From Chitinophaga terrae (ex Kim and Jung 2007) (GTDB lineage: Bacteria > Bacteroidota > Bacteroidia > Chitinophagales > Chitinophagaceae), in NCBI RefSeq assembly GCF_900107795.1, contig NZ_FNRL01000020.1:1-64000 (forward strand): a stretch of DNA of 64,000 nucleotides, read 5' to 3'. The translations under genes and the position numbers were made by a program. Position 1 is the stretch's first letter. Every line of letters begins with the position of its first letter. The notes under the pieces are model-generated. The model saw only the letters and a list, made by a program, of their open reading frames with translations. It searched no databases and was not told the origin of the DNA. Below are positions 15,411 through 47,601 of the stretch, one piece after another.

Positions 15411-15428
15411 GTCTTTGATTTTAGCTGA

Positions 15429-18904: not shown

Positions 18905-18946
18905 CGCTACTGTTCCGACATTAATTGGAATATCGGGACAGTAGCG
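18905..18946 (-). terminator. Hairpin downstream of tailspike-like gene
   Basis: The 14-bp arms CGCTACTGTTCCGA (18905-18918) and TCGGGACAGTAGCG (18933-18946) pair with one G-U pair around a 14-nt loop. The hairpin begins 18 bp after the stop codon of the minus-strand tailspike-like gene. The following T-run is poor, so termination efficiency is uncertain. Confidence 0.55.
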
Positions 18947-18964
18947 AAAACAAATGACCATTTA

Positions 18965-20629
18965 TTAAACCTGGTAAATAATAGTACCAGTAATAGAAAA
19001 TCCGTTAACACAACCAGCTGCGGGTAAAAGAAGCGCTGGGCTGCCACTACCATTTTGCATAAAATGAAGGTTGGGAGTACCACTAGCTACACCAATTCCT
19101 AATTGTGTAAATCCCGTTTGCAAGGTAACGCCACTGTAGTTATAAATAGAACCAGAATAAGCTTCATGAGTAACGGTTTTGGCAGCAGGAAGGTTGTTTA
19201 GCAAAATATAGGCTACACCTGCCCTTGCGGTATCGACAGTGGTGACTTTAACTTTGAAGCTGGCAGTTATCATATTGCCACTTCGGGTATAGGTGCCTGA
19301 TTGGATTTCATAAATGTTATTGCTGGTTCCGGATGTGAACTTAAGTTCCGGGGTCCATGTACCTTCTTCCGGAAATATTTGCCCCTGCTTGGGATAGCTG
19401 GATGAAGGGGTACCAGAAATTCTGTTGCCTGCGAAACATGAAAAACCTTTGTTGTCTCCTCCTATTCCGCTACTTATATTTTTGTTATCAAGATTAGTTA
19501 GACGGTTGTTATTGAAAATGATACCGCCAACTGCACCCAACATACGTACGAATGAAAGATTGTTAGGACTTAATTGTGCGTAGGAACCGGTAATAGACAC
19601 TGCATAGCATGATGTAGCGTTGGTTGAGTCATTGCTAAGTATTATGGGATACAAGGTTCCAATACCGTTGCAATTTTCAAAATAGCAATCGCTGATATTA
19701 ACTTTTGCGATACCAAGACAACGAATTGTTGCGTCGGCGAAACAAGATTCAAAGCGGCACTCCCTAATAACAAGATCTGTACCTGCCTCAAAATATATGG
19801 TGTCACTCCCTCCGGAATGTAGAATATAACAACCCTCGACTGTATTCGCATTACTCTGCAAAGCGGAAATATTACCTTTTGAATATATAGGTAAAAACGA
19901 TGTTGGTTTGGTATTGCCCAGGTACCCAAAAATGCAGTTAATCCATTTTGTAAGAATGAAATTCCCGTAAAATCCTCCAGCCATATCAGACCAGATATTA
20001 CAGTTATCGAACAAGCATCTTGCAGAATAAAGAGTAAGGTTGCTTTGCTTGTAAGCATATGCGACGCCTTTCCCTGCACCGACGGCAGTGAATCCTATTG
20101 ATTTAATACTGACTGATTGCATGGAGGCTGCTGTGAAAACTGCGGTATTGTTGTTTGCTACAAGTAGGGTTGGGTATAAACCTGCTGCACCGTTGCTGTC
20201 ACCAATCAATGTAAGGAAACTAGGCAACGTAACCGCACTGTTAAAGAGGTATCTGCCTGCTGGAACATATAGCGTGTCAGTGTGAGTTGCTGCAAGAAAG
20301 CTGAATGCCCTTTGAAAATATAAAACGTCATCATTGCCCGAAGTGCCGTTCCAGTTGCCTCTCGCGCCAAACCATTTTACATTCACAGGTTCATTGTATA
20401 AACGTTTCCATCTACCGGTAAGGTTAGGCGAAATTGTTTGAGTTTCACAAACTGCATTTGTATCAGTATCAAATATAGTCCCGTAGTCAGGAGTCTCATT
20501 TGATGTGGCATCCCAATAAAAATCGCCACCGCCACCATCTCCTGGTTTATAGTAACCTAATACATGGTATACCTCATTGGCAATAGGGGTTGGCGTAGCG
20601 AGTAATGCACAAATGTTTTGCACCGTCAT
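18965..20629 (-). CDS. Tailspike-like right-handed beta-helix protein
   Basis: A 554-residue protein without a signal peptide. The N-terminal part contains GYYKPGDGGGGDFYWD and VKWFGARGN, a module found at the start of phage tailspikes and GH28-related/Pectate_lyase_3 proteins. Residues from about 85 to 430 show short repeated strands with Asn/Cys/Ile ladders (SDCYFENCNG, ECRFESC), as in a right-handed parallel beta-helix. The C-terminal 120 residues (GTWTPELKF ... GTYTRSGNMI) look like the tip domain of phage tail fibres. No phage structural gene is nearby. The DNA appears more AT-rich than the flanking PULs, which suggests transfer. It may cleave or bind a surface polysaccharide; no catalytic residues could be assigned. 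Confidence 0.65.
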   Translation of the reverse strand: MTVQNICALLATPTPIANEVYHVLGYYKPGDGGGGDFYWDATSNETPDYGTIFDTDTNAVCETQTISPNLTGRWKRLYNEPVNVKWFGARGNWNGTSGNDDVLYFQRAFSFLAATHTDTLYVPAGRYLFNSAVTLPSFLTLIGDSNGAAGLYPTLLVANNNTAVFTAASMQSVSIKSIGFTAVGAGKGVAYAYKQSNLTLYSARCLFDNCNIWSDMAGGFYGNFILTKWINCIFGYLGNTKPTSFLPIYSKGNISALQSNANTVEGCYILHSGGSDTIYFEAGTDLVIRECRFESCFADATIRCLGIAKVNISDCYFENCNGIGTLYPIILSNDSTNATSCYAVSITGSYAQLSPNNLSFVRMLGAVGGIIFNNNRLTNLDNKNISSGIGGDNKGFSCFAGNRISGTPSSSYPKQGQIFPEEGTWTPELKFTSGTSNNIYEIQSGTYTRSGNMITASFKVKVTTVDTARAGVAYILLNNLPAAKTVTHEAYSGSIYNYSGVTLQTGFTQLGIGVASGTPNLHFMQNGSGSPALLLPAAGCVNGFSITGTIIYQV

Positions 20630-20761
20630 AGAATAAATATTTGGTTAACAATAACCTAAATTAACACATTGATACGCATTGGAAATACGCAGAGAAAGTG
20701 CCGATATTTATTCTGAAACTCCTTCCTGGCTTTTGCTGGACATGCATATCCCGACGCATGA

Positions 20762-21631
20762 TCAAAGCCTGTAATACGGCTTATATCTCCCTTCGGCCAA
20801 CCCAACAACCTCCTCGAAAAGTTTTTTTAACAACACAACATTATCTGTCAACCCGCCTTCAATACAACATAAAATTTTATTGATCCTTTGTGAAAAATCC
20901 TCGGGTTTGGTTGTCGACTGCTCAAGGATGTTGATAGCTCTTTTGTCGCCCATCGGATAGCGTTCATTGATGGCAAAAAGCGCCATTACGATATTTTTCA
21001 CCGCTCTTGTCAGGCAACCAACGGTATTATAGGTATCATCTTTTGCTGCAAAGCTTTCCGCTTGCCAGATAGTAAAGTCTGCCGACCAAAGTGATTGCTG
21101 AACAACAGATTGTTTCAGCTTCGGAGGATATTCTATTACGCGTTCCTTTAATTTCTTAATTAAATTATCAGGGTCATAAACGGGGATACAGTTGTTTGTT
21201 TCGGCAAGAAAAATAAGGGATGAAAATCCATAAGGAGGTTGTTGTTCAAAATCATTCTCCCAAATACCCTCTTTTGCTTTCTCTATAGTCCTGGAAATCT
21301 GGTCTATGTTTTTATAGAGAAAATCTACTTTGCCATATTTCGTTTTAATCCATGCCCCGCCGTTCACCCAGGGCCCCCATTCGTAAAAAGCAGTGACAAC
21401 CGGTTGTTCCTTATCTGCGATTTTCTCAGCTATCAATTTTATGCTTTCAATATCAAAAGGGTTCTGTTCAGAATAATAAATACCAATATCAAGGTCGGAG
21501 GTCTCCGTTGCCATACCCATTGCAAAGGAACCTCCAAGAACAACTGCCTTAACGCCTTCGATGTTTTTAAGTTCGTTAGTAATGCCGTCTAGCAGTTGAT
21601 GCTGGTCGTTCGATAATTGGGTTAGCGCCAT
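20762..21631 (-). CDS. Nucleotidyltransferase-fold protein (DUF4037-like)
   Basis: A soluble 289-residue protein with the polymerase-beta-like nucleotidyltransferase signature: GGS at residues 33-35 followed by the metal-binding pair D46 and D48 (SDLDIG). The rest is helical and ends with a region like that of DUF4037 or kanamycin-nucleotidyltransferase-type proteins. It may transfer a nucleotide to a small molecule or protein, but the substrate cannot be inferred. It stands alone between the tailspike-like gene and the GH51 gene and shows no link to either. Confidence 0.75.
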   Translation of the reverse strand: MALTQLSNDQHQLLDGITNELKNIEGVKAVVLGGSFAMGMATETSDLDIGIYYSEQNPFDIESIKLIAEKIADKEQPVVTAFYEWGPWVNGGAWIKTKYGKVDFLYKNIDQISRTIEKAKEGIWENDFEQQPPYGFSSLIFLAETNNCIPVYDPDNLIKKLKERVIEYPPKLKQSVVQQSLWSADFTIWQAESFAAKDDTYNTVGCLTRAVKNIVMALFAINERYPMGDKRAINILEQSTTKPEDFSQRINKILCCIEGGLTDNVVLLKKLFEEVVGLAEGRYKPYYRL

Positions 21632-21673
21632 ATCATTTATCCGTTTAATGTAAATAGGAGCGGTTCATAGAAA

Positions 21674-23623
21674 CTACGGCTTCCTGGTTTTGATCCGGAT
21701 CACCGTTAGCGACATTGGAGGCGCCTCATACCTGAGATCTTTCTTCACTTCAAGAGTTGATCTTACAGGAACAACAGCATTCGGTTTATCCATGCTATTG
21801 ATCGCTGCCGGGTCGCCTTGCAGTATGGTGCAATCCGCGTTTGAAACGATATTCCCGAACTTCGACAGGTTCGCGTTCACTTTTTTAACGGTTGAGCCGG
21901 CGTTAACCAGTTTCAGGATAATATCACCGGTTCTTTTATCCTGTACGCATCCCCCCGCAAAGAGTGAATCTGCAGTCTCATATTTTACCACATTATCAAA
22001 GTAGGTATCGCCCTGGTTGGTTGAAAACAGTTGCTGTACATAATAGTTAACGCTTGGGCTAACACGGGTATTATCGAAATAGATCATATCCGGCTTCCAT
22101 TGTGTAAAGCCATTTTTAGCCAATAAAGGCGCATAGGAAGCCATTGCTACCACATCGCCATTCCGCTCAAGGGAGATCATATACAATGCCTCTGCAATCG
22201 CGTTTTTGACGGTATTGCCCCATGAAGCATATTCGCCGATATACACTCTTGTTGCATTCCGCTTGTAGGTATCGTACCTGTACTGGTTCGATACAAACCA
22301 TTCAGGTTTGCTGTAATAATGTTCGTCCACCACCGGCAAACTCAATGATTTGGCAATTTCCCAGCCTTTGGAGAAATCTTCTCCCTCGGGGAACGGTCCC
22401 ACAGTGCCAACAATGGTGATCTCGGGGTGTTTTGCTTTTACCGCCTGGTAGATCATTTCAAAGCGTTGTTGAAACTCCGGGGTGATCTTGTCTTCATTCC
22501 CGATGCCAATATATTGCAGGTTGAAAGGAGCGGGGTGACCTGCTGCCACGCGTTTGCTTCCCCAGAAGGAGGTGGCCGGTCCGTTTGCCCATTCAACAAG
22601 GTCCAGCACTTCCTGGATGTAGCTTTGCATGCTGTCCATAGGTAATGCCTGCTGGCCCGTGCTGCCGATCCGCCAGGTACCGCCGGAGTTCTGGCAGCTT
22701 ACTGCCGCCGGTAGCACAGGCAACGGTTTAGCGCCTATATCTTCACAGAACTGGAAGTACTCGTAATACCCAAGGCCCATGGTTTGGTGATATCCCCAGA
22801 TATTTCTCTGTTCCAGCCGTTCTTCAATCGGGCCTATTGTATTCTTCCAGCGATACATATTCCCAAGTCCATCCCCATGCACCAGGCAGCCGCCGGGGAA
22901 GCGGATGAATTTCGGATGAATATCAGCCAGGAGTTGCGCCAGGTCTGCACGTAAGCCATTAGCACGGTTTTTAAAGGTCTTTTGAGGAAAGAGGGAGATG
23001 ACATCCAACGCAAGTTTCCCCTTGCTGGTAGCGAGAACAACTAACGTGGCGCTATCGTCTGTCTCCGAAGGAACAAGGCTGCAATTATATTGCTTCCATT
23101 CACTGGCTGCAATTTCAAAAACATGCTGCGCCAGCATCTTTCCATTCTTTCCTTCTATACTAACCTGCAAGCTCACCGGCGCGCCGCTCATTCTTTTGGC
23201 GAAAAGCGACAGGTTATAACCGTCGCCCGCCCTGACCGGAATTTTGCCGAACCCCTGGTTCCTGATCCCAACACCGCTATCGCCAACATGCTCCGCATTC
23301 AATACCAGGTAGTGCGGGTTATTAGGATGAATGGGAGACGAAGTTTCAACACTCACTGTGCCATAGGAATAGCCAGGCGTGATATATTGCCAGAACGAGA
23401 AAGGATGCCAGTCCCTCCTGTCGCCGGGCGCGTATTCAAAAGACCGGTTCTGCACCAGCTCGGCATACAAACCGCCATCGGCCGCGTAGTTGATGTCTTC
23501 AAAAAAAAGTCCGAATAAGTCAGCGCTGATTTTCCTGCCGCCCGGTGATTTTTTCTTCGATATATCCTGTGCCCAGGTACAACAGGTACTTAGCAAACAG
23601 GCTGCGAACAAGAGTGCTTTCAT
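21674..23623 (-). CDS. GH51 alpha-L-arabinofuranosidase
   Basis: A secreted retaining alpha-L-arabinofuranosidase that removes arabinose side chains from arabinoxylan or arabinan. The start at 23623 gives a compact signal peptide (MKALLFAACLLSTCCTWAQ); an in-frame ATG 48 bp upstream would add a long N-region. Numbered from that upstream ATG, the acid/base is E393 in YIGIGNEDK and the nucleophile E480 in YIGEYASWG, both canonical for GH51. A carbohydrate-binding-like insertion lies at about 90-230, before the barrel (IRFPGGC). The C-terminal domain is the usual beta-sandwich. There is no SusCD pair next to it, so it works as a stand-alone enzyme or belongs functionally with the hemicellulase genes further along. 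Confidence 0.92.
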   Translation of the reverse strand: MKALLFAACLLSTCCTWAQDISKKKSPGGRKISADLFGLFFEDINYAADGGLYAELVQNRSFEYAPGDRRDWHPFSFWQYITPGYSYGTVSVETSSPIHPNNPHYLVLNAEHVGDSGVGIRNQGFGKIPVRAGDGYNLSLFAKRMSGAPVSLQVSIEGKNGKMLAQHVFEIAASEWKQYNCSLVPSETDDSATLVVLATSKGKLALDVISLFPQKTFKNRANGLRADLAQLLADIHPKFIRFPGGCLVHGDGLGNMYRWKNTIGPIEERLEQRNIWGYHQTMGLGYYEYFQFCEDIGAKPLPVLPAAVSCQNSGGTWRIGSTGQQALPMDSMQSYIQEVLDLVEWANGPATSFWGSKRVAAGHPAPFNLQYIGIGNEDKITPEFQQRFEMIYQAVKAKHPEITIVGTVGPFPEGEDFSKGWEIAKSLSLPVVDEHYYSKPEWFVSNQYRYDTYKRNATRVYIGEYASWGNTVKNAIAEALYMISLERNGDVVAMASYAPLLAKNGFTQWKPDMIYFDNTRVSPSVNYYVQQLFSTNQGDTYFDNVVKYETADSLFAGGCVQDKRTGDIILKLVNAGSTVKKVNANLSKFGNIVSNADCTILQGDPAAINSMDKPNAVVPVRSTLEVKKDLRYEAPPMSLTVIRIKTRKP

Positions 23624-23874
23624 TCTTTTTATGGGGAGTGTGTGGGCCGTGGAATATTTAGACTTATTCATTCTGATTGTTTATTTAAAAAAAAGCGTGG
23701 GATAATATATAAAAAGATTATGAGAAATAATATTCATCAGGTGAGAACTTAGGACTCAGACAGGCATTCTACCAGGTTTATCTGCATATGCCACTAGAAA
23801 AGTTTAAAACAAGCGATTGAAAGCGCCTGTAACATTTTACGGTACCGGCACGCTTTACGATCAAACAAAACGTT

Positions 23875-26777: not shown

Positions 26778-29225
26778 ATGAAAAATATAAAAGGTTTATT
26801 GCTGGCCAAATGTTTTTTGGTATTGCCTTCTTTGCTTTGGGCGCAGGACAGGATAAAACAGGAATTGGAAACACGGAAAACCGGGCTGCCTAACGGATGG
26901 ACGATCACGCCCGCCGGCGCCCAGCTTCAACTGGGAGATCTGCCCTTAAACCTCGTGATCAGCCATAATAAAAAACTGGCTGCGGTTACCAACAACGGGC
27001 AAAGTACGCAGACCATTGAACTGATAGATATTGCTCAAAAAAAGAAGGTCGACAGCATCGTGATTGCAAAATCGTGGTATGGACTGGCTTTCTCGTCTAA
27101 AGACGACCTGTTGTATGCATCCGGGGGGCACGACAATATGATCAGGATCTATGGCATCAACAAGGGCAAATTATCCCTGAACGATTCCATTGTATTAGGT
27201 AAGCCCTGGCCCAACAAAATTGGTATAGCCGGGCTGGAGATCGACGACAAGATCCGGAAAGAGTTGTATGTAGTCACCAGGGAAGATAAACAGCTTTATG
27301 TGATAGATCTTCTTCATAAAACAATAAAAACAAAGATCGATCTAGGAGCGGAAGGTTATACCTGTAAACTGTCGCCCGATCTCAAACGTTTATACGTCAG
27401 TGTTTGGGGCGCGAAAAAATTGCTGGTATGGGATACAGACCAGGGAAAAGTAGTGCAGGAGATTGCCGTAGGAAGCCATCCGAACGAAATTACCTTCAGC
27501 AGGAATGGCAAATGGTTATATGTTGCGAATGCAAACGATAACTCTGTTTCTGTGATCAATACCGCGAAAGGCCAGGTGGTGGAAACCCTGAATGCAGCTT
27601 TGTACCCAAACGCGCCTAGCGGTTCTACAAGTAATGGAGTAGCGCTGTCTGACGATGGAAAAACATTGTATATAGCTAATGCAGATAATAATTGCCTGGC
27701 GGTTTTTGATGTCAGTCAACCTGGCAAGTCGCAGTCTAAAGGCTTTATTCCTGTAGGCTGGTACCCTACCAACGTGAAAGTGGTGAATAAGGAGATATTG
27801 GTAACCAATGGCAAGGGGATGTCTTCCATGGCTAATCCGCATGGTCCGAATCCGACCGACAGAAAGGAGAAGGTGGATAGGCATGCCGGCGACAGGAACA
27901 AGCCGCAGGAAATTCAATATATAGCCGGTCTTTTTAAAGGAACACTGAGTTTTATTGACCAACCGGGACCAGGAGTACTGTCGGTCTATTCGCAGGCTGT
28001 TTACCGGAATACGCCTTACTCGAAAGATAAGGAGCTTAATGCAGAAGGCGAAGTGGGGAACCCGGTACCGATGAAGGTGGGAGAGCCTTCGCCGATCAAA
28101 TATATTTTTTATGTGATCAAGGAGAACCGGACTTACGACCAGGTGTTGGGAGATCTGGCCCAGGGAAACGGTGATCCGAACCTTTGCCTGTTCGGTGAAA
28201 AGATAACGCCTAATCAGCATAAGATAGTTAGGGACTTTGTATTGCTGGATAATTTTTATGTAGATGCAGAAGTGAGTGCAGATGGACATAACTGGAGCAT
28301 GGGCGCCTATGCGACGGATTACCTGGAAAAAACCTGGCCTTCAAGTTATGGAGGCAGGGGAGGAACCTATGGAGGAGAAGGGGAAAGGGAGATAGCCAAC
28401 AACAGGGACGGTTTCATCTGGGACAATGCAAAACGTCATAATATCACATACCGGTCGTATGGCGAATTTGCGGACGATGGAAAAGCGAATGTCAAATCGC
28501 TGGAAGGTCATTTTGCAACGAACTATTCGGGCTACGATCTCAGCATCGCCGATACCACCCGTTTCAGGCAGTGGAAAGCCGATTTTGATGAATTGATTAA
28601 AGAAGGAAGAGTACCGCAATTGACTACCCTTCGTTTCGGTAACGATCATACCGAGGGAATGAGAGCCGGCAAAAAAACGCCTTATGCACATGTTGCAGAC
28701 AATGACCTGGCGGTAGGTATGTTCGTTGATTATATCAGTAAAAGCCCGGTTTGGAAAGAATGTGTAATTTTTATCCTGGAAGATGATGCGCAGAATGGGC
28801 CCGATCATGTGGATGCGCATCGGAGCCCGGCCTATGTGATCAGCCCTTACGTTAAAAGAAAATACGTTGATCATACCATGTACTCAACTTCAGGAATGCT
28901 GAGAACCATTGAACTGATCCTGGGAATGAAACCAATGACCCAGTTCGATGCCGCCGCAAAACCAATGTGGAGAGCGTTTACGAATACGCCTGATTATACG
29001 GCGTTTGATCATCTTCCGGCCAATGTTGATCTTACCGAAAGAAACCCGGAAAGCGGGAAACTCGCGCAGTTAAGCAGCAAGTTCGACTGGTCTAAGGAAG
29101 ATGCGGTTCCGGACCTGATCTTTAACGAGATCCTCTGGCAGGGTTTGAAAGGCGAAAGCGCGCCGTCTCCCACACGGGCAGCCTTCTTAAAGGTGAACAG
29201 CAAAAAGGAGGAGGATGATGATTGA
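26778..29225 (+). CDS. YncE-like propeller/phosphoesterase fusion protein
   Basis: An exported 815-residue protein. It has a signal peptide (about 1-22, LPSLLWAQ) and an N-terminal seven-bladed propeller of the YncE/cytochrome-D1 type (about 40-400, with repeats such as LYVANANDNSVSVINTAKG and LYIANADNNCLAVFD). A phosphoesterase domain of the phospholipase C/acid phosphatase family (PF04185) follows at about 440-770, with VIKENRTYDQVLGD at its start and the metal-binding EDDAQNGPDHVDAHRSP near its end. It probably hydrolyses a phosphodiester or phosphomonoester in the periplasm or outside the cell; the substrate is unknown. It is a single gene with its own terminator. Confidence 0.87.
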   Translation: MKNIKGLLLAKCFLVLPSLLWAQDRIKQELETRKTGLPNGWTITPAGAQLQLGDLPLNLVISHNKKLAAVTNNGQSTQTIELIDIAQKKKVDSIVIAKSWYGLAFSSKDDLLYASGGHDNMIRIYGINKGKLSLNDSIVLGKPWPNKIGIAGLEIDDKIRKELYVVTREDKQLYVIDLLHKTIKTKIDLGAEGYTCKLSPDLKRLYVSVWGAKKLLVWDTDQGKVVQEIAVGSHPNEITFSRNGKWLYVANANDNSVSVINTAKGQVVETLNAALYPNAPSGSTSNGVALSDDGKTLYIANADNNCLAVFDVSQPGKSQSKGFIPVGWYPTNVKVVNKEILVTNGKGMSSMANPHGPNPTDRKEKVDRHAGDRNKPQEIQYIAGLFKGTLSFIDQPGPGVLSVYSQAVYRNTPYSKDKELNAEGEVGNPVPMKVGEPSPIKYIFYVIKENRTYDQVLGDLAQGNGDPNLCLFGEKITPNQHKIVRDFVLLDNFYVDAEVSADGHNWSMGAYATDYLEKTWPSSYGGRGGTYGGEGEREIANNRDGFIWDNAKRHNITYRSYGEFADDGKANVKSLEGHFATNYSGYDLSIADTTRFRQWKADFDELIKEGRVPQLTTLRFGNDHTEGMRAGKKTPYAHVADNDLAVGMFVDYISKSPVWKECVIFILEDDAQNGPDHVDAHRSPAYVISPYVKRKYVDHTMYSTSGMLRTIELILGMKPMTQFDAAAKPMWRAFTNTPDYTAFDHLPANVDLTERNPESGKLAQLSSKFDWSKEDAVPDLIFNEILWQGLKGESAPSPTRAAFLKVNSKKEEDDD

Positions 29226-29240
29226 TAAACGATAAAAAAG

Positions 29241-29275
29241 AGCCGCTTAGACTTCGTAAGTTAAGCGGCTTTTTT
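29241..29275. terminator. Strong bidirectional terminator
   Basis: The stem AGCCGCTTA (29241-29249) with TAAGCGGCT (29262-29270) is extended inward by ACTT/AAGT with one bulged G. It is flanked by an A-run on the left and TTTTTATT on the right, and lies between two convergent genes. It should work in both directions. Confidence 0.9.
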
Positions 29276-29280
29276 ATTAC

Positions 29281-29727
29281 TTAATTCCAGTTATCGATCT
29301 TGACATCAAACGGGTGGGGATTGCCTTTCCCTGTTTCAACCAACGACTTCAGGCTCATAAGAAATATAGCCCATTTAGTGCTGCAATGATACATGAACTC
29401 AACCGGCTCTCTCCAGTTTTGTTGACTGAATAAGAGGATCACATAGTCGCCGTCCTTTTTCAGTTCAAAATTCAGGGTTGTACCTACCCATTCCCGGGGG
29501 CCGGCTACTACTTCCCATTGAACCAGGCGGTTAGTATCGAGCTTCGTAACTTCCATATCAAACCCATCTGTACCGAACCTGAATTCGATAACATTCCCTA
29601 CTTTGTCGCCTTCCCCTTTAGTGTCGGTAGTCCACCAGCCTGCGAGGCCATCCCTGGTCGTCAACGCGCGGTAAACATCATCGATTGATGCGTTTTTAAA
29701 CCCTATACGGTGTAAGATATTTGCCAT
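29281..29727 (-). CDS. SRPBCC (AHSA1-type) domain protein
   Basis: A small soluble protein of 148 residues with the START/Bet v1-like fold of the AHSA1 family. Typical features are the N-terminal strand and helix IDDVYRALTTRDGLAGWWT, the strand GNVIEFRFG and a C-terminal long helix (WAIFLMSLKSLVETGKG). Such proteins bind hydrophobic ligands or polyketide-like molecules, or act as stress proteins; no ligand can be inferred. It stands alone after the terminator shared with the phosphoesterase gene. Confidence 0.85.
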   Translation of the reverse strand: MANILHRIGFKNASIDDVYRALTTRDGLAGWWTTDTKGEGDKVGNVIEFRFGTDGFDMEVTKLDTNRLVQWEVVAGPREWVGTTLNFELKKDGDYVILLFSQQNWREPVEFMYHCSTKWAIFLMSLKSLVETGKGNPHPFDVKIDNWN

Positions 29728-29823
29728 CGGTCATTGTTTTTATAAAGGTATTTTTTTAAATGATAGTACATGGGGGTAAAATGGACAATGTTAGGGGGGA
29801 GGATGGACAAGTGCGGGAAAGCA

Positions 29824-29894
29824 AAACCCTATCAACTATTTCTGTTCATCATCTTTTAAGATCAGATGTTGAAAAAAGAATGTTGATAGGGTTT
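29824..29894 (-). terminator. 13-bp inverted repeat after GH39 pseudogene
   Basis: AAACCCTATCAAC (29824-29836) and GTTGATAGGGTTT (29882-29894) are perfect 13-bp arms around 45 nt that contain a second small palindrome (ATCTTTTAAGAT). It lies 33 bp after the stop codon of the GH39 pseudogene and ends in TTTT on the minus strand. It is either a branched terminator or the footprint of a small mobile element. Confidence 0.45.
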
Positions 29895-29927
29895 ATAAGT
29901 AGGAGTTCGACTATGCAGCTATGACAT

Positions 29928-31186
29928 TTACAGCCTCACAATATTCACCAGGCAAACATCATTCTCCCGCATATCAATCGTTTCTGCAAACGATTCGTTT
30001 TTATTGATTGTTACAATCTTTCTATAGATAGCCGCTCCGTCGTTCTGCTTTTTGATCTGCTCTACCGCTGTCCTGTTAAGCTGTGCAGGCCGGCCCATCG
30101 CCAGGTAGGTGGTATACGCGTCGTTGCATCCATAGCCGACTTTATAGAGCTCTACTGAATAGGCGCCTGCGGGAAGCTCTTTGATATTGAGTCTGAGCTT
30201 TCCTTTAGATTTTGAAGGCAGGTCGCGGATATAATATTTCTGGTTATGTACCGAGTCGCCCGGATGGGTGTTGGTAAAATCCCATACCAATGCCTGTACA
30301 TTACCTGAACTGTCGCGGCACACCCAGGACGACGAATCTTTATTCGTAAGTTCCGTACTTCCCAGGCGGTTCATAAACTGGTAGGCGTAGAACACAGGTT
30401 TATTAATGCCCTGGATGGTCAGCATACCGAAGCCCCCATGGAAAGGAGTGAAACGCGGCCCAGGTTCTTCGAAGATATCTGTGAACACCCAGTACGACAT
30501 GGAATTAGCCGCATGCCCTACTTGCTTGAGTTTTTGCAACACATATGCTGCTTCATGGTAACTGTCGTGGATCGGATCGGCAGGCGTATAGGAGGCGCTC
30601 CATTCTGTATAATGCAGTTCCAGTTCAGGCATGCCGGCTGCCTGGATTTCGGACCTCGACTGGAGTACTTCTCCACTTACACTCATCGGGTTTTTGTCGA
30701 GCACCGTTCCCGATTGACCGAATTTGGCGGCGTTACATTTCCCCGCCACCAGAAGATGGTCTTGTTTCCGCTGGCCAGCCTGGATGGCATGAAACCCAGT
30801 TCAACGAAGGGCTTCATGCCTATGCTATGCAGGAAGTCGAACAAGGCGTCTACATACATAAAGTTATACTGCGGGTTTCCTTTTTCATCTTCTGTATAAA
30901 TAGCCATTTCATCCCCCAATAAACCATGCATACGGATATACCTGAAACCACATTCTTTCCTGACATAAGCCAGCTGCTGCTGCCAGTCGGCCCGTAATCC
31001 TTCCGCTGCGCGTCCCGCGCCCACGCATTCATTCAGCATAGTGGTAAGTGGTCCTGCAACGGCGTTGTAGTTTACATCCACTATCCGTTCTGGTTGGGTT
31101 GCTGCACGTTTCCCGTGGTTTTGCGCCAGGAGGCTGTTTGTTGCCATTACCAGCGTCATTACCATCAAACTTAATTTTCTATTCAT
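29928..31186 (-). pseudogene. GH39 beta-xylosidase, internally deleted and frameshifted
   Basis: Two reading frames encode parts of one secreted GH39 beta-xylosidase. The first part (31186 to about 30730) has the signal peptide (ending SLLAQ) and the barrel start (FRYIRMHGLLGDEM, FVELGFMPS, WWRGNVTPP). The second part (about 30728 to 29928, a different frame) resumes at FGQSGTVLDKNPMSVSG and continues through the nucleophile region LHYTEWSASYTP, SYWVFTDIFEEPGP and the C-terminal beta-domain. In full-length GH39 proteins (about 500 residues) these points are separated by some 120-150 residues that contain the acid/base NEP motif, which is missing here. The break lies at about 30721-30730. No functional enzyme is expected. 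The gene follows the GH5 gene by 80 bp. Confidence 0.85.
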
Positions 31187-31266
31187 TTGTTTATTATTAA
31201 TTAATCTCTACCACTCAGCGAGCCATTGATCTGTCTTGCAGCTTTAACAGCAGGCAATGCCTGTTG

Positions 31267-32727
31267 TTATTTCGTTCCTGCCATAATCGCATTAATAGTA
31301 CGTTGGTCGCGAACTGTATTATTACGTCTGTCCAGCGCCCCGCCCGTATCCCAGAAGAACGGTTTTAATCCATTGGAGACAGCCTGTTTTGTTGAGAAGG
31401 TAATCCAGTAATCAACTGATGCGTTGTGTTTATCCAGCTCCTTGGGCGTGGTTCGGCGATACGCTCCGTATTCGCCCAGCAGAACGGGGATCTCTTTATC
31501 TATGAACTGTTGTTTTATTTGGCGGTAGTAGGCGATCAAATCCGGTTCTTCGCCATAGGTAGGATTTCTATCGGGTTCAATGGCAGAATGGTTGCCCTCA
31601 CCCCAATAATAAACCATCTTGCCCCATGATACGTCTTCATTCAGGAAGGTGAACTGGGAAGGGGTATAGTTATGATCTTCATACATCAGGCGTTTGGGAG
31701 TGGAATCTGCAGGCATGGATTTAAAATAATGCGGAGAGCCCTGTACAACTAATGCACGGTACGTATTTCGGCCGCCGGTGGAGCGAACGGCATCAACAAA
31801 GGTCTGGTGGTAGGTTGCGAGTACCGCCATGTTCGTTGGGTTGTCGGCGTTCGGCTCATTGGCGCTGGCAAACATCAGGTGTTCGTCAAAGTCGCGCATC
31901 GCGGTGGCAATCTGTTCCCAGAAAGCCTTTTGCTTGGCGTTTACAGAATCCTGTTTCGCCGGGGTACAGTTGTTTTCCAGCCAGCCGCCATCCCAGTGAA
32001 TGTTAAGCAAAACATACATGTCGTTATTGACGCAGTATTGCACTACCTGTTTTACCCTGTTCATCCAGTTGTCGTCTATCTTCCCTGTGAGTTTGTCTGA
32101 ATACTGGTTCCATGAACATGGAAGTCTTATGGCATTGAACCCTTGTTGCTTAACGAATTTTATATAGCTCTCCGAGATCAGCGGATTGCCCCAGGCTGTT
32201 TCGCCGCCTATTGCTTCGAGGGTGTTGCCGATATTCCATCCGACTTTGATCTTTGCTGCAAGTTGAACGGCGTTGCTTTCCATACCGTTGATATCCGCAG
32301 GCTTGGGAGATGTATTATAACTCGGATATAACCTGCCTGGCTGGCTAACGGAAACTCTCTGGGCCAGGCCGTTATCTGCCGAAATTGTTAAGATCACAGA
32401 CCGTGTAGTGCCTGATGTATTGGGCGATGCGGTTAGTTTTATGCTGGTTTTCGGACCGCTTCCTTTTGTTGAACTGACTTCCAGCCAGGAAGCCATGTTT
32501 ACGATATTCCATTGTGCGTTTGCGGATACCACCAGGTCCGATGTTCCTCCCTCGGGAAGGAACGAGATCTCTGTCGCGGAAACTCCCAATTCGGGTGCGG
32601 GGTTTCCTTTCTTCCCGCATTGAATGGAAGAAATAATGGCAATGAGGAAAAAGAAGAATGTGATTGCAGCGGGTATGCGGATACGCATTTGAGTCACTAA
32701 ACTGGCGCTTAGGAGGTTTTTTTTCAT
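31267..32727 (-). CDS. BACON-GH5 endoglycanase lipoprotein
   Basis: A glycoside hydrolase of family 5 (486 residues) with a lipoprotein-type signal (ISSIQC, C37). An in-frame ATG at 32688 would give a shorter, equally good signal. Residues 45-132 form a BACON domain (Ig-like, seen in Bacteroidota glycanases as spacer or mucin binder). The TIM barrel spans 150-485 with IGNTLEAIGGETAWGNP, acid/base E291 in SANEP, and nucleophile E419 in LLGEYGA. It most resembles endo-beta-1,4-glucanases, xyloglucanases or xylanases of the GH5_4 kind; the substrate is uncertain. It is followed by the broken GH39 gene, and a 21-bp direct repeat lies upstream. Confidence 0.9.
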   Translation of the reverse strand: MKKNLLSASLVTQMRIRIPAAITFFFFLIAIISSIQCGKKGNPAPELGVSATEISFLPEGGTSDLVVSANAQWNIVNMASWLEVSSTKGSGPKTSIKLTASPNTSGTTRSVILTISADNGLAQRVSVSQPGRLYPSYNTSPKPADINGMESNAVQLAAKIKVGWNIGNTLEAIGGETAWGNPLISESYIKFVKQQGFNAIRLPCSWNQYSDKLTGKIDDNWMNRVKQVVQYCVNNDMYVLLNIHWDGGWLENNCTPAKQDSVNAKQKAFWEQIATAMRDFDEHLMFASANEPNADNPTNMAVLATYHQTFVDAVRSTGGRNTYRALVVQGSPHYFKSMPADSTPKRLMYEDHNYTPSQFTFLNEDVSWGKMVYYWGEGNHSAIEPDRNPTYGEEPDLIAYYRQIKQQFIDKEIPVLLGEYGAYRRTTPKELDKHNASVDYWITFSTKQAVSNGLKPFFWDTGGALDRRNNTVRDQRTINAIMAGTK

Positions 32728-32784
32728 GTACGTGGATTTTTTGGGGTAAATCTATAATGCAGGCGGCTCAAACAGGGTCGTGTA

Positions 32785-32817
32785 ATGTTTCAAATCGGGG
32801 TATAAATGTTGCAAATC
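32785..32817 (-). promoter_or_regulatory. 21-bp-periodic direct repeat upstream of GH5 gene
   Basis: ATGTTTCAAATC (32785-32796) and ATGTTGCAAATC (32806-32817) match at 11 of 12 bases with start points exactly 21 bp apart, two DNA turns. This is the geometry expected for a dimeric AraC-type binding site, placed 58-90 bp before the GH5 start codon and just after the 3' end of the hybrid regulator gene. A regulator-binding role is inference. Confidence 0.5.
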
Positions 32818-32823
32818 CATTTT

Positions 32824-35592
32824 CTACATCTTCGCTCCATACTTCTCCTTATACGCTTTCGGCGTCATTCCTGTAATTTTTTTAAAGGAAGTAGAAAAAT
32901 AAGAAGGAGTAGAGAAACCTGTTTCGTAAGCTATTTCAGCAAAAGACAGGTTATCGTACTGTATCAGGTACTTCGCTTTTTGTACCCGTTGTAAAAGAAT
33001 GTATTCTGTAATGCTTACATCCAGCAAAGGTTTGGTTTTCCTGTACAACTGGATCTTGGAAAGTCCCATTTCATCGCAGAGATCCTGGATCGAGAAATTC
33101 TCGTTCGAGAGGTTCTTTTCTATGATCGCGTTGAAACCGGAGAGGAACGCTTTTTCACTTTTGTTGGCCTGTGGCAGCGCCTCCCTGGGTATGTCGGCTG
33201 TCAGGTGGGTTTTCAACCGCTGGCGGTTTTCCAGCAGGTTGTTAATGGTTTCTTCTAATACTTCGCTGTTGAATGGTTTGGTGATATAGGCGTCGACGTT
33301 TGTTTTCAGTCCTGCAACTTTTTGTTCGTCGGTTGTTTTAGCCGTTAACAGGATGATGGGAATATGAGAGGTCCGGATATCTGCTTTCAGTACCTGGGCC
33401 ATTTCCAAACCATCGGTTTGCGGCATCATGATATCTGAAATGACCAGGTCGGGCATTTCTTCGAACGTCAGGCGGGCGCCTTCGGTACCGTTTTTTGCTG
33501 TGATAACTGCAAACCTGGAACTGAGGCGGTTAGCGAGGAAGGCCCTCAGGTCGTCGTTGTCTTCCACGATAAGGATAGTGTTGCCGGTAGAAGAACCGTG
33601 TTCGGCGGGTTGCGGATGAATGGCCTGTGGAATAGCGCCTATGTTGTAATCGGCGATCCAGGTATCCATTTCGCTGTTGTAGCCCCAGTCTTTGACCGGT
33701 ACGATCTGGTCGTCGGTGTACTGGTCTTTTCCCATAGGAAGGGTAATGGTAAATGCGGTGCCCTTGTTCTTTTCGCTGTCAGCCACAATGGTTCCGTGGT
33801 GCAGTTCTACCAACTCTTTCGAAAGCGCAAGACCGATGCCGCTGCCATTTTGATTATGCACATCTCCATAGTAAAAGAAATCGAAAATCCGTTCTTTATC
33901 CTGTGCGCTTAACCCGAACCCCGAATCTGCCACTTTTATGGATACGGTGTTCGAGTCGTCATGTTTTTCCACGATCACATAAATATGCCCCGCGTCGGCG
34001 GTGAACTTAAAGGCATTGGATAATATATTGAAGAATACTTTCTCGATTTTCTCGGGGTCGATCCAGAGTTTGACAGATGATTCTTTGGTGATCATCCGGC
34101 AGTCGATCTGGTGCTGCCTGGCCAGTCCTTTAAATGCGTCGATAATGTCGTTAATGAAAGGAAGCATATCCACTTCCTGTATCTTCAGCCGCATTTTGTT
34201 CAACTCCAGCTTGCGGAAATCCATCAATTGGTTTACCAGCAGCGAGAGGCGGGATGCGCTTTTCTTGATGAGGGCAAACTGCGAGCGTATATGCGGAGGC
34301 GTTCTAGGATTTTGCAGGCATTCGTCTGTTGGCGCAAGGATGAGGGTAAGCGGTGTTTTTAATTCGTGCGAGATATTAGTGAAAAAGTTGCTCTTTTGTT
34401 CGCTGGCTTGTTGCACCTGCTGGGCCATTTCCTTAATCTGCTCGCTCTGGGAGCGGATTTCATGGTTTTGCGACTGAAGCAGCTTATATGCTTTTATATT
34501 CTTCCTTCTTAAATAGATCAACAGGCCGGAGAGCATCAGGAGCAGGGCCAGGTTGCCAATTAATATAAGGATGAGGTTTTTCTGCGTCCTGAACGTTCTT
34601 GCCTGTTCTTTTAGCAGGCCGTCCTGGCGTACAATGTCCTTCTGTTGGGCAATCACCCTGTTGAACTGCTGTTGCAGCATTACCACGTTGGTACTGTCTA
34701 CGATAATGGTTCTCAGGAAATCGCGTTTCGGCGCTTCCTGCCCGTGAAGGATCTTTGCGGCTGCCCTGATAGCCTCGCCTCCCCCGGTCGGGTAGAGTAC
34801 CGAAGCCAATAATGACCTGTTTTCCACGAATTCCAGGCCTGTCCGGGGCTGTGCATCTACCCCGATAACCTTGATACCCGGAAATCCCAGTTCTTTACAG
34901 ATGGCGGCGGCAGTATTGGCCATCACATCGTTATGGGCAAATATCAGCCTGGTGTTCTGCAGCTCTTTTTTCATCCGGGGAAGCTGCCGTTGCACGCTGC
35001 CTTCCAGCCAGTCGCCCTGTATTACAGTAACGTTGATATGCGGGTAACGGGCAATTTCATCCCCGAATCCTTTTTCCCTTTGCAGGGCGGGAGTAGAGGA
35101 AGGAAGCCCGGTGATCTCTATAATATTGCCTGTTTTATCCAGGTAGCTTGCGGCATACTGCCCTGCCAGCCTGCCCACTTCAATATTATCGGCCCCGATA
35201 AATGAATTATAGGAATCAGAAGAAATGTTCCGGTCAACCACTACAACAGGGATACCTTGTTTATATAAACTGTCTATAACCGGTGTTAACGGCGCCGCCT
35301 CATTGGGCGAAACGATCAGCAGGTCTATTTTCCTGGCAGCCAGCTCCCTGATCTGCTGCACCTGTTCGGCGCTATTGTAGTTAGCCTGCCTGTAAAGAAT
35401 TTTCAGGTCTGGGTTAAATACCAGTTCCCGGTCGATCTCCTCCTTCATTTCCCTGCGCCAGGCATCCGCATCTCCCAGTTGGGAGATACCTATTAAATAA
35501 ATCTTCTCCTGCTTTTCCTGGCAGGCCGGAAGCAGCAGGAGAGAAAGCAGGGAAACCCATAGCAGGCGCCTAAAAGCTGTTTTGGAGATCAT
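32824..35592 (-). CDS. Hybrid two-component system with sugar-binding ectodomain (fructan regulator)
   Basis: A one-protein sensor/regulator of 922 residues. The start at 35592 (ATG) is preferred over an in-frame TTG 9 bp upstream. In order: a signal sequence with a Cys (LLLPAC), a periplasmic type I sugar-binding-protein domain (about 30-300, Peripla_BP_4, LacI-like), a membrane helix (340-362), a coiled coil, HisKA with H409 (ISHELKTP), HATPase_c (GSGIGLALS), a receiver with D720 (VISDIMMP) and an AraC-type HTH at the C-terminus. The architecture and the adjacent fructan operon match BT1754 of B. thetaiotaomicron, whose ectodomain binds fructose. It is read divergently from the operon it presumably activates. 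Confidence 0.93.
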   Translation of the reverse strand: MISKTAFRRLLWVSLLSLLLLPACQEKQEKIYLIGISQLGDADAWRREMKEEIDRELVFNPDLKILYRQANYNSAEQVQQIRELAARKIDLLIVSPNEAAPLTPVIDSLYKQGIPVVVVDRNISSDSYNSFIGADNIEVGRLAGQYAASYLDKTGNIIEITGLPSSTPALQREKGFGDEIARYPHINVTVIQGDWLEGSVQRQLPRMKKELQNTRLIFAHNDVMANTAAAICKELGFPGIKVIGVDAQPRTGLEFVENRSLLASVLYPTGGGEAIRAAAKILHGQEAPKRDFLRTIIVDSTNVVMLQQQFNRVIAQQKDIVRQDGLLKEQARTFRTQKNLILILIGNLALLLMLSGLLIYLRRKNIKAYKLLQSQNHEIRSQSEQIKEMAQQVQQASEQKSNFFTNISHELKTPLTLILAPTDECLQNPRTPPHIRSQFALIKKSASRLSLLVNQLMDFRKLELNKMRLKIQEVDMLPFINDIIDAFKGLARQHQIDCRMITKESSVKLWIDPEKIEKVFFNILSNAFKFTADAGHIYVIVEKHDDSNTVSIKVADSGFGLSAQDKERIFDFFYYGDVHNQNGSGIGLALSKELVELHHGTIVADSEKNKGTAFTITLPMGKDQYTDDQIVPVKDWGYNSEMDTWIADYNIGAIPQAIHPQPAEHGSSTGNTILIVEDNDDLRAFLANRLSSRFAVITAKNGTEGARLTFEEMPDLVISDIMMPQTDGLEMAQVLKADIRTSHIPIILLTAKTTDEQKVAGLKTNVDAYITKPFNSEVLEETINNLLENRQRLKTHLTADIPREALPQANKSEKAFLSGFNAIIEKNLSNENFSIQDLCDEMGLSKIQLYRKTKPLLDVSITEYILLQRVQKAKYLIQYDNLSFAEIAYETGFSTPSYFSTSFKKITGMTPKAYKEKYGAKM

Positions 35593-35598
35593 CGTTGC

Positions 35599-35606
35599 CA
35601 AAAATA
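35599..35606 (-). promoter_or_regulatory. Candidate -7 box of fructan regulator gene
   Basis: On the minus strand TATTTTTG (35606-35599) fits TAnnTTTG and lies 6 bp before the ATG at 35592. The nearest TTG is only 14 bp upstream, so the -33 box is weak. Confidence 0.35.
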
Positions 35607-35616
35607 GAAATAAAGC

Positions 35617-35652
35617 GATACAATTTTAAAATCTGCTGATACAAAAATTAAA
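35617..35652. promoter_or_regulatory. 21-bp-periodic direct repeat between fructan regulator and operon
   Basis: GATACAATTTTAAAA begins at 35617 and GATACAAAAATTAAAA at 35638, again 21 bp apart. They lie in the 209-bp region between the divergent regulator and the permease gene, a fitting place for an operator of the AraC-type effector domain. Part of the match is A/T-rich, so chance cannot be excluded. Confidence 0.45.
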
Positions 35653-35801
35653 AACGCCTTTCTGTAATGATCATTAATGAATTGATAATCAAATATATAA
35701 CCTGTTTTTAAAAGTTTGTAAGTAATAGAAACAAAATTGAAATGAACGAGGAGCTGCCAGGGGTTATTTTCAGGCCATCAAAAGTGATTTATTTCAACGT
35801 T

Positions 35802-37163
35802 ATGAAAAACAGACTTTTATTTTGGAGCATAGTGATTGCTCTGGGAGGCTTACTCTTTGGAATGGATGTAGCGGTCATCTCCGGGGCCGAACAACAAATA
35901 CAGCATATCTGGAATTTAAGTGATGTCGTCCACGGCCAGGCTTTAGCAGCAGCATTATATGGAACCATTATAGGCGCTTTGCTGGGAGGTATTCCGGCAG
36001 AAAGATACGGGCGCAAAAAAGTACTGCTCTGGATAGGGATCATATTCTTTATATCTTCTGTAGGCTCCGCCCTGGCGCATGATGTTATCACCTTTATGGT
36101 TTTCCGCTTTATTGGGGGGCTGGGAGTAGGAGCATCTTCCGTAGTGGCGCCTATGTTTATTTCTGAAATTGCGCCGGCCAAAAGCAGGGGAAAACTGGTA
36201 GCCACTTTCCAGTTCAATATCGTATTCGGTATCTTACTCGCTTACTTTTCCAATTTCCTGTTAGCCTCGCAGGGCGATGAAGCCTGGCGCTGGATGCTGG
36301 GAGTACTCGCCATACCGGCAGCCCTCTTCGTTGCGCTGCTGTTCTTCGTACCTGAAAGTCCCCGTTGGCTGATGGTTCACAGGAACGACTATACCGCCGC
36401 CCGTAAAATCCTGGAAGTTTCTGATCCCGAAGGGGTCGACGACGCCATCCAGGCGATCCGCCAGGAAGTAGAGGCAGATAAAAAGAAAGCCAGTTTGTCC
36501 GCCTTCTTTTCAAAACGCTATGCCAGGCCTATTATCATGGCGGTATTAGTGGCCATGTTCAACCAGCTTTCCGGGATCAATGCCATTATCTATTTCGCGC
36601 CACGGGTCTTTGAACTGGCTGGTCTGGGAAAAAGCGCCGCTTTCCTCCAGAGTGCGGGAGTAGGTTTGGTAAACATGATCTTCACCATGCTGGGCCTCCG
36701 GTTAATCGACCAACTTGGCCGCAGAAGCCTGATGCTTATTGGTTCCATCGGGTATATCATCTCCCTGGGGGCTATTGCCGCCGCGTTCTACTTTCAATAC
36801 CTGGGCGGGATGGTAGTGCCGGTGCTGGTGTTCCTATTTATCGCTTCTCACGCCATCGGACAGGGCGCTGTGATCTGGGTATTTATTTCAGAAATATTTC
36901 CCAACCAGGTTCGTTCCTATGGTCAATCGCTGGGCAGCTCCGTTCACTGGATCATGGCGGCCATCATCACCAGCGTATTCCCATTCTTTGCCAACAACCC
37001 GGCTATCGGCCCTGCCAAGATCTTCCTCTTTTTCATGGTAATGATGACGGCCCAATTGCTTTGGGTCTTGTTCCGGATGCCTGAAACGAAAGGCGTGTCG
37101 CTGGAAGAGATGGAAGAGAAGTTAGGCGTAAAGAACACGGAAAGCGCCACCCAGCCGGTTTAA
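35802..37163 (+). CDS. MFS sugar permease (sugar porter family)
   Basis: An inner-membrane monosaccharide/proton symporter of 453 residues. The start at 35802 begins just before the first membrane helix (MKNRLLFWSIVIALGGLLFGMD); an upstream ATG at 35742 would add 20 residues without family support. Twelve membrane segments are evident. Family marks: the motif RYGRKK after helix 2, PESPRWL after helix 6, the second half QLGRRS, and PETKGVSLEEMEE at the C-terminus. First gene of the fructan operon and equivalent in position and role to BT1758, so fructose is the likely substrate. Confidence 0.92.
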   Translation: MKNRLLFWSIVIALGGLLFGMDVAVISGAEQQIQHIWNLSDVVHGQALAAALYGTIIGALLGGIPAERYGRKKVLLWIGIIFFISSVGSALAHDVITFMVFRFIGGLGVGASSVVAPMFISEIAPAKSRGKLVATFQFNIVFGILLAYFSNFLLASQGDEAWRWMLGVLAIPAALFVALLFFVPESPRWLMVHRNDYTAARKILEVSDPEGVDDAIQAIRQEVEADKKKASLSAFFSKRYARPIIMAVLVAMFNQLSGINAIIYFAPRVFELAGLGKSAAFLQSAGVGLVNMIFTMLGLRLIDQLGRRSLMLIGSIGYIISLGAIAAAFYFQYLGGMVVPVLVFLFIASHAIGQGAVIWVFISEIFPNQVRSYGQSLGSSVHWIMAAIITSVFPFFANNPAIGPAKIFLFFMVMMTAQLLWVLFRMPETKGVSLEEMEEKLGVKNTESATQPV

Positions 37164-37189
37164 GATTTTATTATTAAGAAACGATTATC

Positions 37190-38095
37190 ATGATGAATAA
37201 GAAAAACGAGGTTGTCTGTTTTGGTGAGATCCTCTGGGATGTACTGCCGGGCCAGGAACTGCCCGGAGGAGCGCCGATGAATGTTACTTACCACTTGTCC
37301 AAACTTGGACGTAAAGCCACGCTTATCTCCCGTTTAGGAAACGATGAAAGGGGAATTGCTTTAAGAAAGATCTTTGAAGACAAAGGTATCGACACCAGTT
37401 TTGTACAGGTAGATGCCCTTCACAAAACCAGTATTGTGCTTGCCACTCCCAACGAAGCGGGCGATATGAAATATGATATAGTGGAAGATGTAGCCTGGGA
37501 TTATATAGAAAAACAGCCCGATCATGAAACGCTCATTTCCCAATCCCGCTATTTTGTTTTTGGCAGCCTGGCCATGCGTAACAAAGGGTCCAGGGATACC
37601 CTGCTGGCTTTAATGGAACTTCCCTGCACCAAAGTATTGGACATCAACCTGCGGGCGCCTTTTATTAACAAGGAACATATCACCTACCTGTTGAGGAAGG
37701 CAGATATAGTTAAGATGAACGAGGAAGAGCTGGGACTTGTAACAGGCTGGTACGGCGACTATATCGGCATAGAAGAAAAGATGCAGCTGCTGCAACACAG
37801 GTTCAACATCGAAACGCTTATTGTCACCCGCGGCGCAAAAGGAGCGGCTATCAAACACCAGGATCATTCTTATTTACATGATGGCTTTAAAGTACAGGTT
37901 GCTGATACCATTGGGAGCGGCGACAGCTTCCTGGCGGCATTTCTTTCAAAATTTATGGAAAACAAAAATGTAGATGCAGCATTGACATTTGCCTGCAAAG
38001 TAGGGGCTTTCGTTGCTACAAAAAAAGGCGGCTGCCCTGATTACGATGTCAGTGAAATAGACAGGACTAATATCATCTGCTCCATTCCCGATTAA
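37190..38095 (+). CDS. PfkB-family fructokinase
   Basis: A cytoplasmic ATP-dependent sugar kinase of 301 residues in the ribokinase fold. The N-terminal sugar-binding signature is CFGEILWDVLP and PGGAPMNVTYHLSKLG. The C-terminal PfkB signature DTIGSGDSFLAA carries the catalytic base D245 and the anion hole. It phosphorylates the fructose brought in by the adjacent permease. A second Met follows the first; either may be used. It lies 26 bp after the permease and 35 bp before susC, so it is cotranscribed. Confidence 0.93.
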   Translation: MMNKKNEVVCFGEILWDVLPGQELPGGAPMNVTYHLSKLGRKATLISRLGNDERGIALRKIFEDKGIDTSFVQVDALHKTSIVLATPNEAGDMKYDIVEDVAWDYIEKQPDHETLISQSRYFVFGSLAMRNKGSRDTLLALMELPCTKVLDINLRAPFINKEHITYLLRKADIVKMNEEELGLVTGWYGDYIGIEEKMQLLQHRFNIETLIVTRGAKGAAIKHQDHSYLHDGFKVQVADTIGSGDSFLAAFLSKFMENKNVDAALTFACKVGAFVATKKGGCPDYDVSEIDRTNIICSIPD

Positions 38096-38130
38096 TTAAC
38101 ACTATTTCATTGTAAAACATTTCCACGACT

Positions 38131-41100
38131 ATGAAAAGATTTCTAACAATGATCTTTCTTGGCATCGCCATTCATGGTTTTGCCCAGCAAAAGAAGGTCG
38201 GAGGCCTGGTAACAGATAAGAATACACGCACACCTGTTATCGGCGCTACTGTGATCTCGCAGAAACAGACCGTTACTACAGACAGTACAGGGCATTTCTC
38301 CCTGGCAGCCGAGGCAAATGAACTGATCACCATCTCCTGTATCGGGATGAACACCATCAGGGTACCGGTGCCGGCATCCGGACAGATCGTAGCAGAGCTA
38401 TCGGCCAACATTTCAGATCTCAACCAGGTAGTGATCACGGGTTACCAGACGCAACGCAAAGCCGATCTTACCGGCGCTGTAAGCGTGGTGAACGTGGGCG
38501 ACCTGAAGAAACAGGCAGTGGCCAATCCTGTTAAAGCGTTGCAGGGACAGGTGTCCGGCGTCTTTATCACTTCCAGCGGTTCGCCCAGCGCGCCGGTAAC
38601 GGTGCGCATCAGGGGAGTTGGTACGCTGAACGATAACGACCCGTTATATATCATCGACGGCGTGCCAACCAAAGCGGGATTGCATGAGCTCAACTCCAGC
38701 GATATTGAAACCATGCAGGTGCTGAAAGATGCGTCGGCAGCCAGCATTTACGGCGCCCGCGCTGCCAACGGCGTGATTATCATTACAACCAAACAAGGCC
38801 GCTCCGGCCGCATGCAGGTTAACGTAAACGCCTATACCGCCGTACAAACCTATACAACCAAACCCAAAATGCTGAATGCGGGAGGCTATGGCCAGGCCTA
38901 TTGGCAGGCTGCCGTTAATACCGGCAGAGATCCTAATGCCAACAGCATCGGTTACAATTTCCAATGGCATGCGGATGACAACGGAACTCCTGTGCTGGAT
39001 AAGATCCTCTTGCCGGAATATATCGACGGCGACAGGAGAACAATGCGGACTTCCAACACCAACTGGTTCGACGAGATCTCACAGACTGGCATCGTGCAAT
39101 CGTACGACCTCTCTGTTACCAACGGAACAGAGAACGGGAGCTACCTGTTTTCTGTGGGGTACTTCGATAACAAAGGCGTGATAAAAACAACCAATTTCAA
39201 TCGTCTTTCCGCCCGCATGAATGCCAATTACAAACTCCTGAAAGGACGTTTGCAGGTAGGAGAGAACTTCACCATCAACCGTACAAAAGAAGTACAGGAC
39301 CCGGGCGTATTGAACCTCTCCCTGCAGGCATTGCCTATTGTGCCCGTGCATACCGTAGATGGCATCGGCTGGGGAGGCCCCTGGGGCGGGATGAACGACA
39401 GGCAAAACCCTGTGAGGCTATTGATGGATAACCAGCAGAACGGGTACAAGTACCTAAGGTTATTCGGCAACGTTTATGCGGACCTGTCCATCATTCCCGG
39501 CCTGAACCTCCGCACCAGCGCGGGTATTGACTACGGCAATTACCTGGCGGATAACTTCCTGAAAAAGTACCAGTCGGGATACCTGGTAGGGAACGAGAAC
39601 CAGCTAACAATGAACTATTCCAACAGCTCCAGGGTTACATGGACCAACACCCTGAACTATAACCGTACCATCGGCAAACACCTGGTGAACGCGGTATTGG
39701 GAACTGAATTCTATAAACAGAACGACCTCTCGTTCTGGGCCAGCAGGAAGAATTACGCGATAGAAGATCCGAACTATACATACCTGGATGCCGGAACCGG
39801 CGAGAAAAACAATGGAGGGGGCGGCGCTATCAACGCGTTGATGTCGTACTTCGGAAAAGTGAACTATACTTATGATTCAAGATACCTTGCTTCCTTTACC
39901 ATACGCCGGGACGGATCTTCCAGGTTTGGTATCCACAACCAGTTCGGTACTTTCCCAGCCTTCTCGCTTGGCTGGCGCGTAAGCCAGGAAGAGTTCTTCA
40001 GGAAAAATGCTCCTTCCTTCATCAGCGATCTTAAACTCCGCTATGGCTGGGGACAAACGGGCAACCAGGAGATCAGCAACGTGGGCGCTTACTCCATTTA
40101 TGTAACAGATTATAATGGCACCTCTTATGACATAGCGGGCGCGAATACGGGCACGCTTCCTTCCGGTTATCATATCACCCAACGGGGTAATGATAACCTC
40201 AAATGGGAAGCAACTACCATGAGCAACTACGGAATAGACGTGGGCTTCTGGGAACAGAAACTGACAGGAAGCTTCGAATACTTTACCAAAAAGACCAGCG
40301 ACATATTGGTACTGCCCCCTTACATCGCCGTACTGGGCGAAGCCGGCAACCAATGGGTGAACGGCGCATCAATGGAGAACAGGGGCTGGGAAGCGGCGCT
40401 TACTTATAACGGCAGTATCGGCGAAGTGGAATTCCAGGTATCCGGGAATATCTCGGGGTATAAAAATAAAGTCACCAAACTGCCGGAATCTGTCGTGAAC
40501 AATTACGGCGGCAATGGCCTGGACGATAATATTCTCGGGCGCCCTGTAAACTCCTACTACGGCTACGTAACAGATGGGTTGTTCAGAACGCAGAAAGAAG
40601 TGGACGAATCGGCCAGGCAGTTAGGCAAAGGCCTGGGCCGGATCCGGTACAAAGACCTGAACGACGATGGAGTGATCGACGACCGGGATCGCACCTGGAT
40701 AGGAGCGCCACATCCTGATTTTATTTATGGACTTAACCTGGCCGTACAATGGAAAGGCTTTGATCTTTCTGCTTTCTTCCAGGGAGTGCAGGGCAACGCT
40801 GTTATCAATGATGTAAAATACAATACGGATTTCTGGAGCGTGAGAGAAACAGGTTCCAACAAAGGAAGCCGCCTGCTGAACGCATGGTCGCCGCAAAACC
40901 CGAATTCGTCTATCCCTGCCATATCGGCAACCGACGACAACTTCGAGTCAAGGTTTTCTACCTACTTCATAGAACGGGGCGATTACCTGAAACTGCGGAA
41001 TATTCAACTGGGTTATACCTTCCCGAAACAACTGCTTAACAGGCTCAGTATCCAAAAATTAAGGGTGTATGTAGGTGGCGATAACGTATGGCTTGTGCAT

Positions 41101-41196: not shown

Positions 41197-41219
41197 TCTT
41201 TACCAAGAACGTCTTTACC

Positions 41220-42917: not shown

Positions 42918-42940
42918 GTAAACTGACAAATCGCTGCGTT

Positions 42941-44329: not shown

Positions 44330-44357
44330 GTTATTTATAACAATAAATCTTAACGGT

Positions 44358-47591: not shown

Positions 47592-47601
47592 TTTATATGC
47601 T

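Follow-up and report, generated by a model that had tools for sequence, protein, structure and literature searches.

On the minus strand of the 64,000-nucleotide stretch of Chitinophaga terrae DNA analyzed here (the window, which begins at the start of a contig of 123,281 bases), positions 29928 to 31186 carry a GH39 gene split between two reading frames, its parts matching positions 3-125 and 255-456 of the family model PF01229. Has this gene been broken, and if so how and how recently, or is it an intact gene misjoined in assembly, or a shortened gene put to some new use? We argue, with a probability of roughly 0.92, that it is the pseudogene of a secreted GH39 beta-xylosidase-like enzyme, produced by one recent 334-bp deletion.

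A GH39 gene in two frames

The 5' part of the gene (30727 to 31186, minus strand) opens with a stretch that, judged by eye, is signal-peptide-like, encodes barrel strands 1-3, and continues to WWRGNVTPP, matching PF01229 positions 3-125 with an E value of 1.4e-39. The N-terminal open reading frame as a whole spans 31186 to 30683 on the minus strand (167 amino acids), and the ORF list gives its remainder after the join (30683 to 30726, minus strand) as an out-of-frame run of 13 codons, terminal stop included. The 3' part (29928 to 30726, minus strand) belongs to a different frame, that of a C-terminal open reading frame of 273 amino acids running from 30749 to 29928 on the minus strand, for which the mechanical ORF list offers a GTG codon at 30749 as a possible start. 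In this frame the GH39 match restarts at FGQSGTVLDKNPMSV and extends to PF01229 position 456 (positions 255-456, E 5.6e-26), encompassing the nucleophile motif TEW, retained as HYTEWSASYTP, together with barrel strands 7-8 and the C-terminal domain. Both fragments score above the Pfam cut-off (136.7 and 91.8 bits versus 26), and PF01229 positions 126-254 are matched by neither. The original prediction had the family match ending after WWRGNVTPP and resuming in another frame, with the nucleophile region and C-terminal domain kept, and it described the layout correctly. A PF01229 search of the strain's own assembly (6.63 Mb in 64 contigs, scored 99.97% complete) at an E value of 0.001 found no second GH39 gene beyond the two fragments.

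The interruption is peculiar to this copy. We searched a genus set of 79 genomes, the query's included, with the gene's DNA and obtained a match in 28; the 51 that gave none lead us to regard the gene as patchy in the genus and probably dispensable. In each of the 27 other genus loci one open frame, 525-548 codons long when counted between stops, holds both the N-terminal and the C-terminal part. In a named collection, whose genomes overlap with the genus set, the best 80 of 249 relatives were kept and compared; the best matches come from Chitinophaga, and 79 of the 80 loci are uninterrupted, the remaining one (L108) being cut by a contig end. None of the 27 genus loci and none of these best 80 of 249 named loci carries the same deletion. 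The disabling change is therefore absent from orthologues, as expected of a pseudogene, in 27/27 genus loci and in 79 of the best 80 named ones. Intact Bacteroidota orthologues resemble our copy in the nucleophile region and C-terminal domain, yet they form a single open frame where this one is interrupted. One such orthologue, in Chitinophaga varians, shares 69% protein identity with the N-terminal fragment and 81% with the C-terminal fragment. The most divergent genus orthologue (L054) is also intact, at 56% and 58% identity to the query in the two parts, and perhaps represents a separate subgroup.

The beta-xylosidase-like name, and with it a probable role in trimming plant xylan, rests on similarity to GH39 beta-xylosidases with solved structures (8i0j, 6uqj, and 4ekj/4m29). 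An intact relative of 525 amino acids (L042) aligns with 8i0j from residue 11 to residue 515 of the 518 submitted (E 7.1e-135), with the NEP and TEW motifs included; the window's copy, in contrast to the solved enzymes, lacks 111 residues with the acid/base and changes frame.

The probable deletion and its breakpoints

Comparison with the relatives' DNA places the meeting point of two blocks at query positions 461-465, or about 30722-30726 in the window, in agreement with the predicted junction at about 30721-30730. We record the join at 30722 to 30727 on the minus strand, with 334 bp absent and the exact point ambiguous by a few bases. The missing stretch was measured against every genus relative except L054, in which the landmark pattern did not match: 24 of these 26 relatives have 334 bp that the query lacks, and the other 2 have 337 bp. 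When 12 relatives were aligned separately, 9 gave 334 bp and 3 gave 337 bp. Since 334 bp is 111 codons plus one base, the frame changes at the join. An internal deletion had indeed been proposed from the sequence, and that part stands; the proposed size of 120-150 residues was slightly too large, the loss being 111 residues plus one base.

In the 26 intact relatives the bases shared at the two breakpoints number 0 in one relative, 2 in 16, 3 in 7, and 4 in 2, and exact repeats shared by the two 36-bp regions around the breakpoints measure 3-7 bp at their longest. The short direct repeats suggested in the original prediction for the ends of the deletion were thus not seen, and sharing of only 0-4 bp fits an end-joining-like or slippage deletion and not recombination between repeats. 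In the query the join reads CCA and then AATTC. The relatives compared included no intact allele from the species itself, so the ancestral breakpoint sequence has to be read from relatives at 68-80% DNA identity. Many of these carry a lysine codon after the second proline, and if the ancestor did too, the query's breakpoints would have had at most about two bases (AA) in common. We therefore envisage an end-joining-like or slippage event, with no more than about 2 bp of shared sequence, that would have removed 334 bp and shifted the frame, leaving a truncated and presumably inactive product.

These same data bear on whether the join exists in the organism at all. In an assembly of 64 contigs, 334 bp might have been dropped from a contig while the strain's gene remained intact. 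Assembly collapse normally needs a direct repeat, however, and the breakpoints share 0-4 bp in the 26 intact relatives, with no exact repeat longer than 7 bp in the surrounding 36-bp stretches. The join also lies well inside its contig, with about 30 kb to the nearer end, and no stray copy of the missing part was found in the assembly. The latter result, which bears directly on the possibility that the lost segment resides elsewhere in the genome, comes from a search of the 6.63-Mb assembly for which the closest intact relative supplied the protein query. That search matched both known fragments (the 3' part at 81% identity over 265 residues) and, as a third match, a 1231-codon frame on contig C14 with weak similarity (25% identity over query positions 143-252, E 0.004). 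We consider an assembly error unlikely, and a genuine deletion remains the reading that we favor.

Loss of the probable acid/base residue and three predicted barrel strands

The NEP motif lies inside the missing stretch in 26/26 measured relatives, just as had been claimed when the acid/base region was said to be gone. It is present in 27/27 genus loci and in all 79 complete named loci, and TEW is likewise found in 27/27 genus loci. In XacXynB the acid/base is reported as Glu162, which follows Asn161, and the nucleophile as Glu279 (PMC7242879); mapping from that enzyme, we read the glutamate of NEP as the probable acid/base and that of TEW as the probable nucleophile.

The damage appears to extend to the fold. 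In L042 the lost stretch corresponds to about residues 150-261 and holds WYFEVWNEPN, RVGGPGTAG, and DFISTHAYGV. An AlphaFold2 model of this protein (mean pLDDT 73.6, pTM 0.79, several loops under 50) places three strands (179-181, 218-222, and 246-251) as well as four helices inside the missing stretch, with strands at 51-54, 78-82, and 120-124 before it and at 296-302 and 335-339 after it. By our own reading of the model, the three internal strands would be barrel strands 4, 5, and 6. The window's copy accordingly does not encode a complete (beta/alpha)8 barrel in one frame: three predicted strands are gone, and what is left occupies two frames. CmGH1, a member of GH39, is reported to be active although Gln and Tyr occupy its two catalytic positions (PMC6933502), so a missing acid/base is not by itself proof of inactivity. 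We nonetheless expect the shortened product to be inactive and probably misfolded, three predicted barrel strands having been lost besides the acid/base.

Could the locus instead be a functional split or recoded gene, in which ribosomal frameshifting or re-initiation yields a shortened protein, or separate pieces, serving some new role? In favor of this, each fragment is an open frame with no change at the invariant sites, the GTG at 30749 could open the 3' frame, and CmGH1 offers one reported instance of GH39 catalysis without the canonical glutamates. Against these points stand the absence of three of eight predicted barrel strands along with the acid/base motif, the fact that the arrangement occurs in no relative examined, and the expectation that a selected split would be older and shared. 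We regard such a gene as highly improbable. Equally improbable is a more specific version, in which the shortened gene would be expressed by frameshifting or re-initiation as a dead GH39 protein that binds xylan fragments or aids the neighboring GH5 enzyme. A deletion pseudogene thus remains our preferred account, and we know of no feature that distinguishes it from bacterial pseudogenes with a single internal deletion, which likewise show one frameshifting loss in an otherwise clean gene.

Age of the break and its genomic setting

Of the residues that never vary in 85 distinct relatives (alignment columns with two gaps or fewer were admitted), the query is changed at 0/46 in the N-terminal part and 0/71 in the C-terminal part; when relatives were left out singly, they carried a mean of 0.16 and 0.18 such changes, with a maximum of 2 and 3. 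The absence of change at 117 invariant codons argues that the break is recent. On the assumption that positions fixed in the 85 relatives drift freely in a dead gene, the Poisson 95% upper bound since inactivation comes to about 0.011 changes per nonsynonymous site, over 276 such sites. Synonymous changes were rejected as a means of dating, with pS between the query and each of eight relatives at 0.69-0.84 and the sites saturated, and the age estimate is for this reason taken from the invariant-codon bound only. Compared with these eight intact relatives, the query has a pN/pS of 0.25-0.29 in the N-terminal part and 0.13-0.19 in the C-terminal part; intact pairs with pS of at least 0.65 have 0.16-0.33 and 0.09-0.21, so that the query falls within the spread of intact pairs at similar distance.

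For the greater part of its separate history the gene was thus under selection, and its break is recent, unless the join is an assembly error and the gene is whole. The fragments lack decay at invariant sites exactly as an intact gene would, and the invariant-site and pN/pS tests return the same result for a just-broken gene as for an intact one (the relatives' means being 0.16 and 0.18), which is what an assembly error has in its favor. Along with the uninterrupted relatives, the clean invariant codons also agree with the original prediction of a recent deletion with little other decay.

Loss of the gene would have been tolerated because GH43-family genes were kept in the genome and because many members of the genus lack the gene anyway. 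A GH43 model matches 10 places in the strain's genome at more than 80 bits, and there is one GH10 match; going by their family names, these other xylan-active enzymes may cover the loss. The break is very likely a real but ordinary event, one more case of a well-known kind. It offers a clean view of a carbohydrate-enzyme gene just after inactivation and touches no open question. There is a practical consequence for annotation. Both fragments exceed the Pfam cut-off, one or two GH39 genes may be listed here, and a xylosidase capacity might be counted that this locus probably no longer gives the strain. None of the paper titles and abstract openings that we examined describes this gene.

Directly upstream on the same strand lies a GH5 (cellulase family) gene with a BACON domain (31267 to 32727, minus strand). 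It looks intact, as had been stated, with NEP and GEY motifs and a PF00150 match covering positions 7-269 of 272 (E 2.4e-52). Among 37 named loci (L056-L092), 20 have a tblastn match to the GH5 protein within about 5 kb of the GH39 gene, on its upstream side in some and on its downstream side in others. For RNA elements, a scan of 29225 to 35700 gave no Rfam match at the gathering threshold. A separate locus at 32824-49074 encodes a hybrid two-component sensor with a sugar-binding Peripla_BP_4 domain, a sugar transporter, a PfkB kinase, a SusC/SusD pair, a DUF4960 protein, and three GH32 genes, and from these family names it reads as a fructan-utilization locus. On the minus strand at 13887-23671, another SusC/SusD pair lies near a pectate-lyase-like protein and an alpha-L-arabinofuranosidase (ASD1_dom plus Alpha-L-AF_C).
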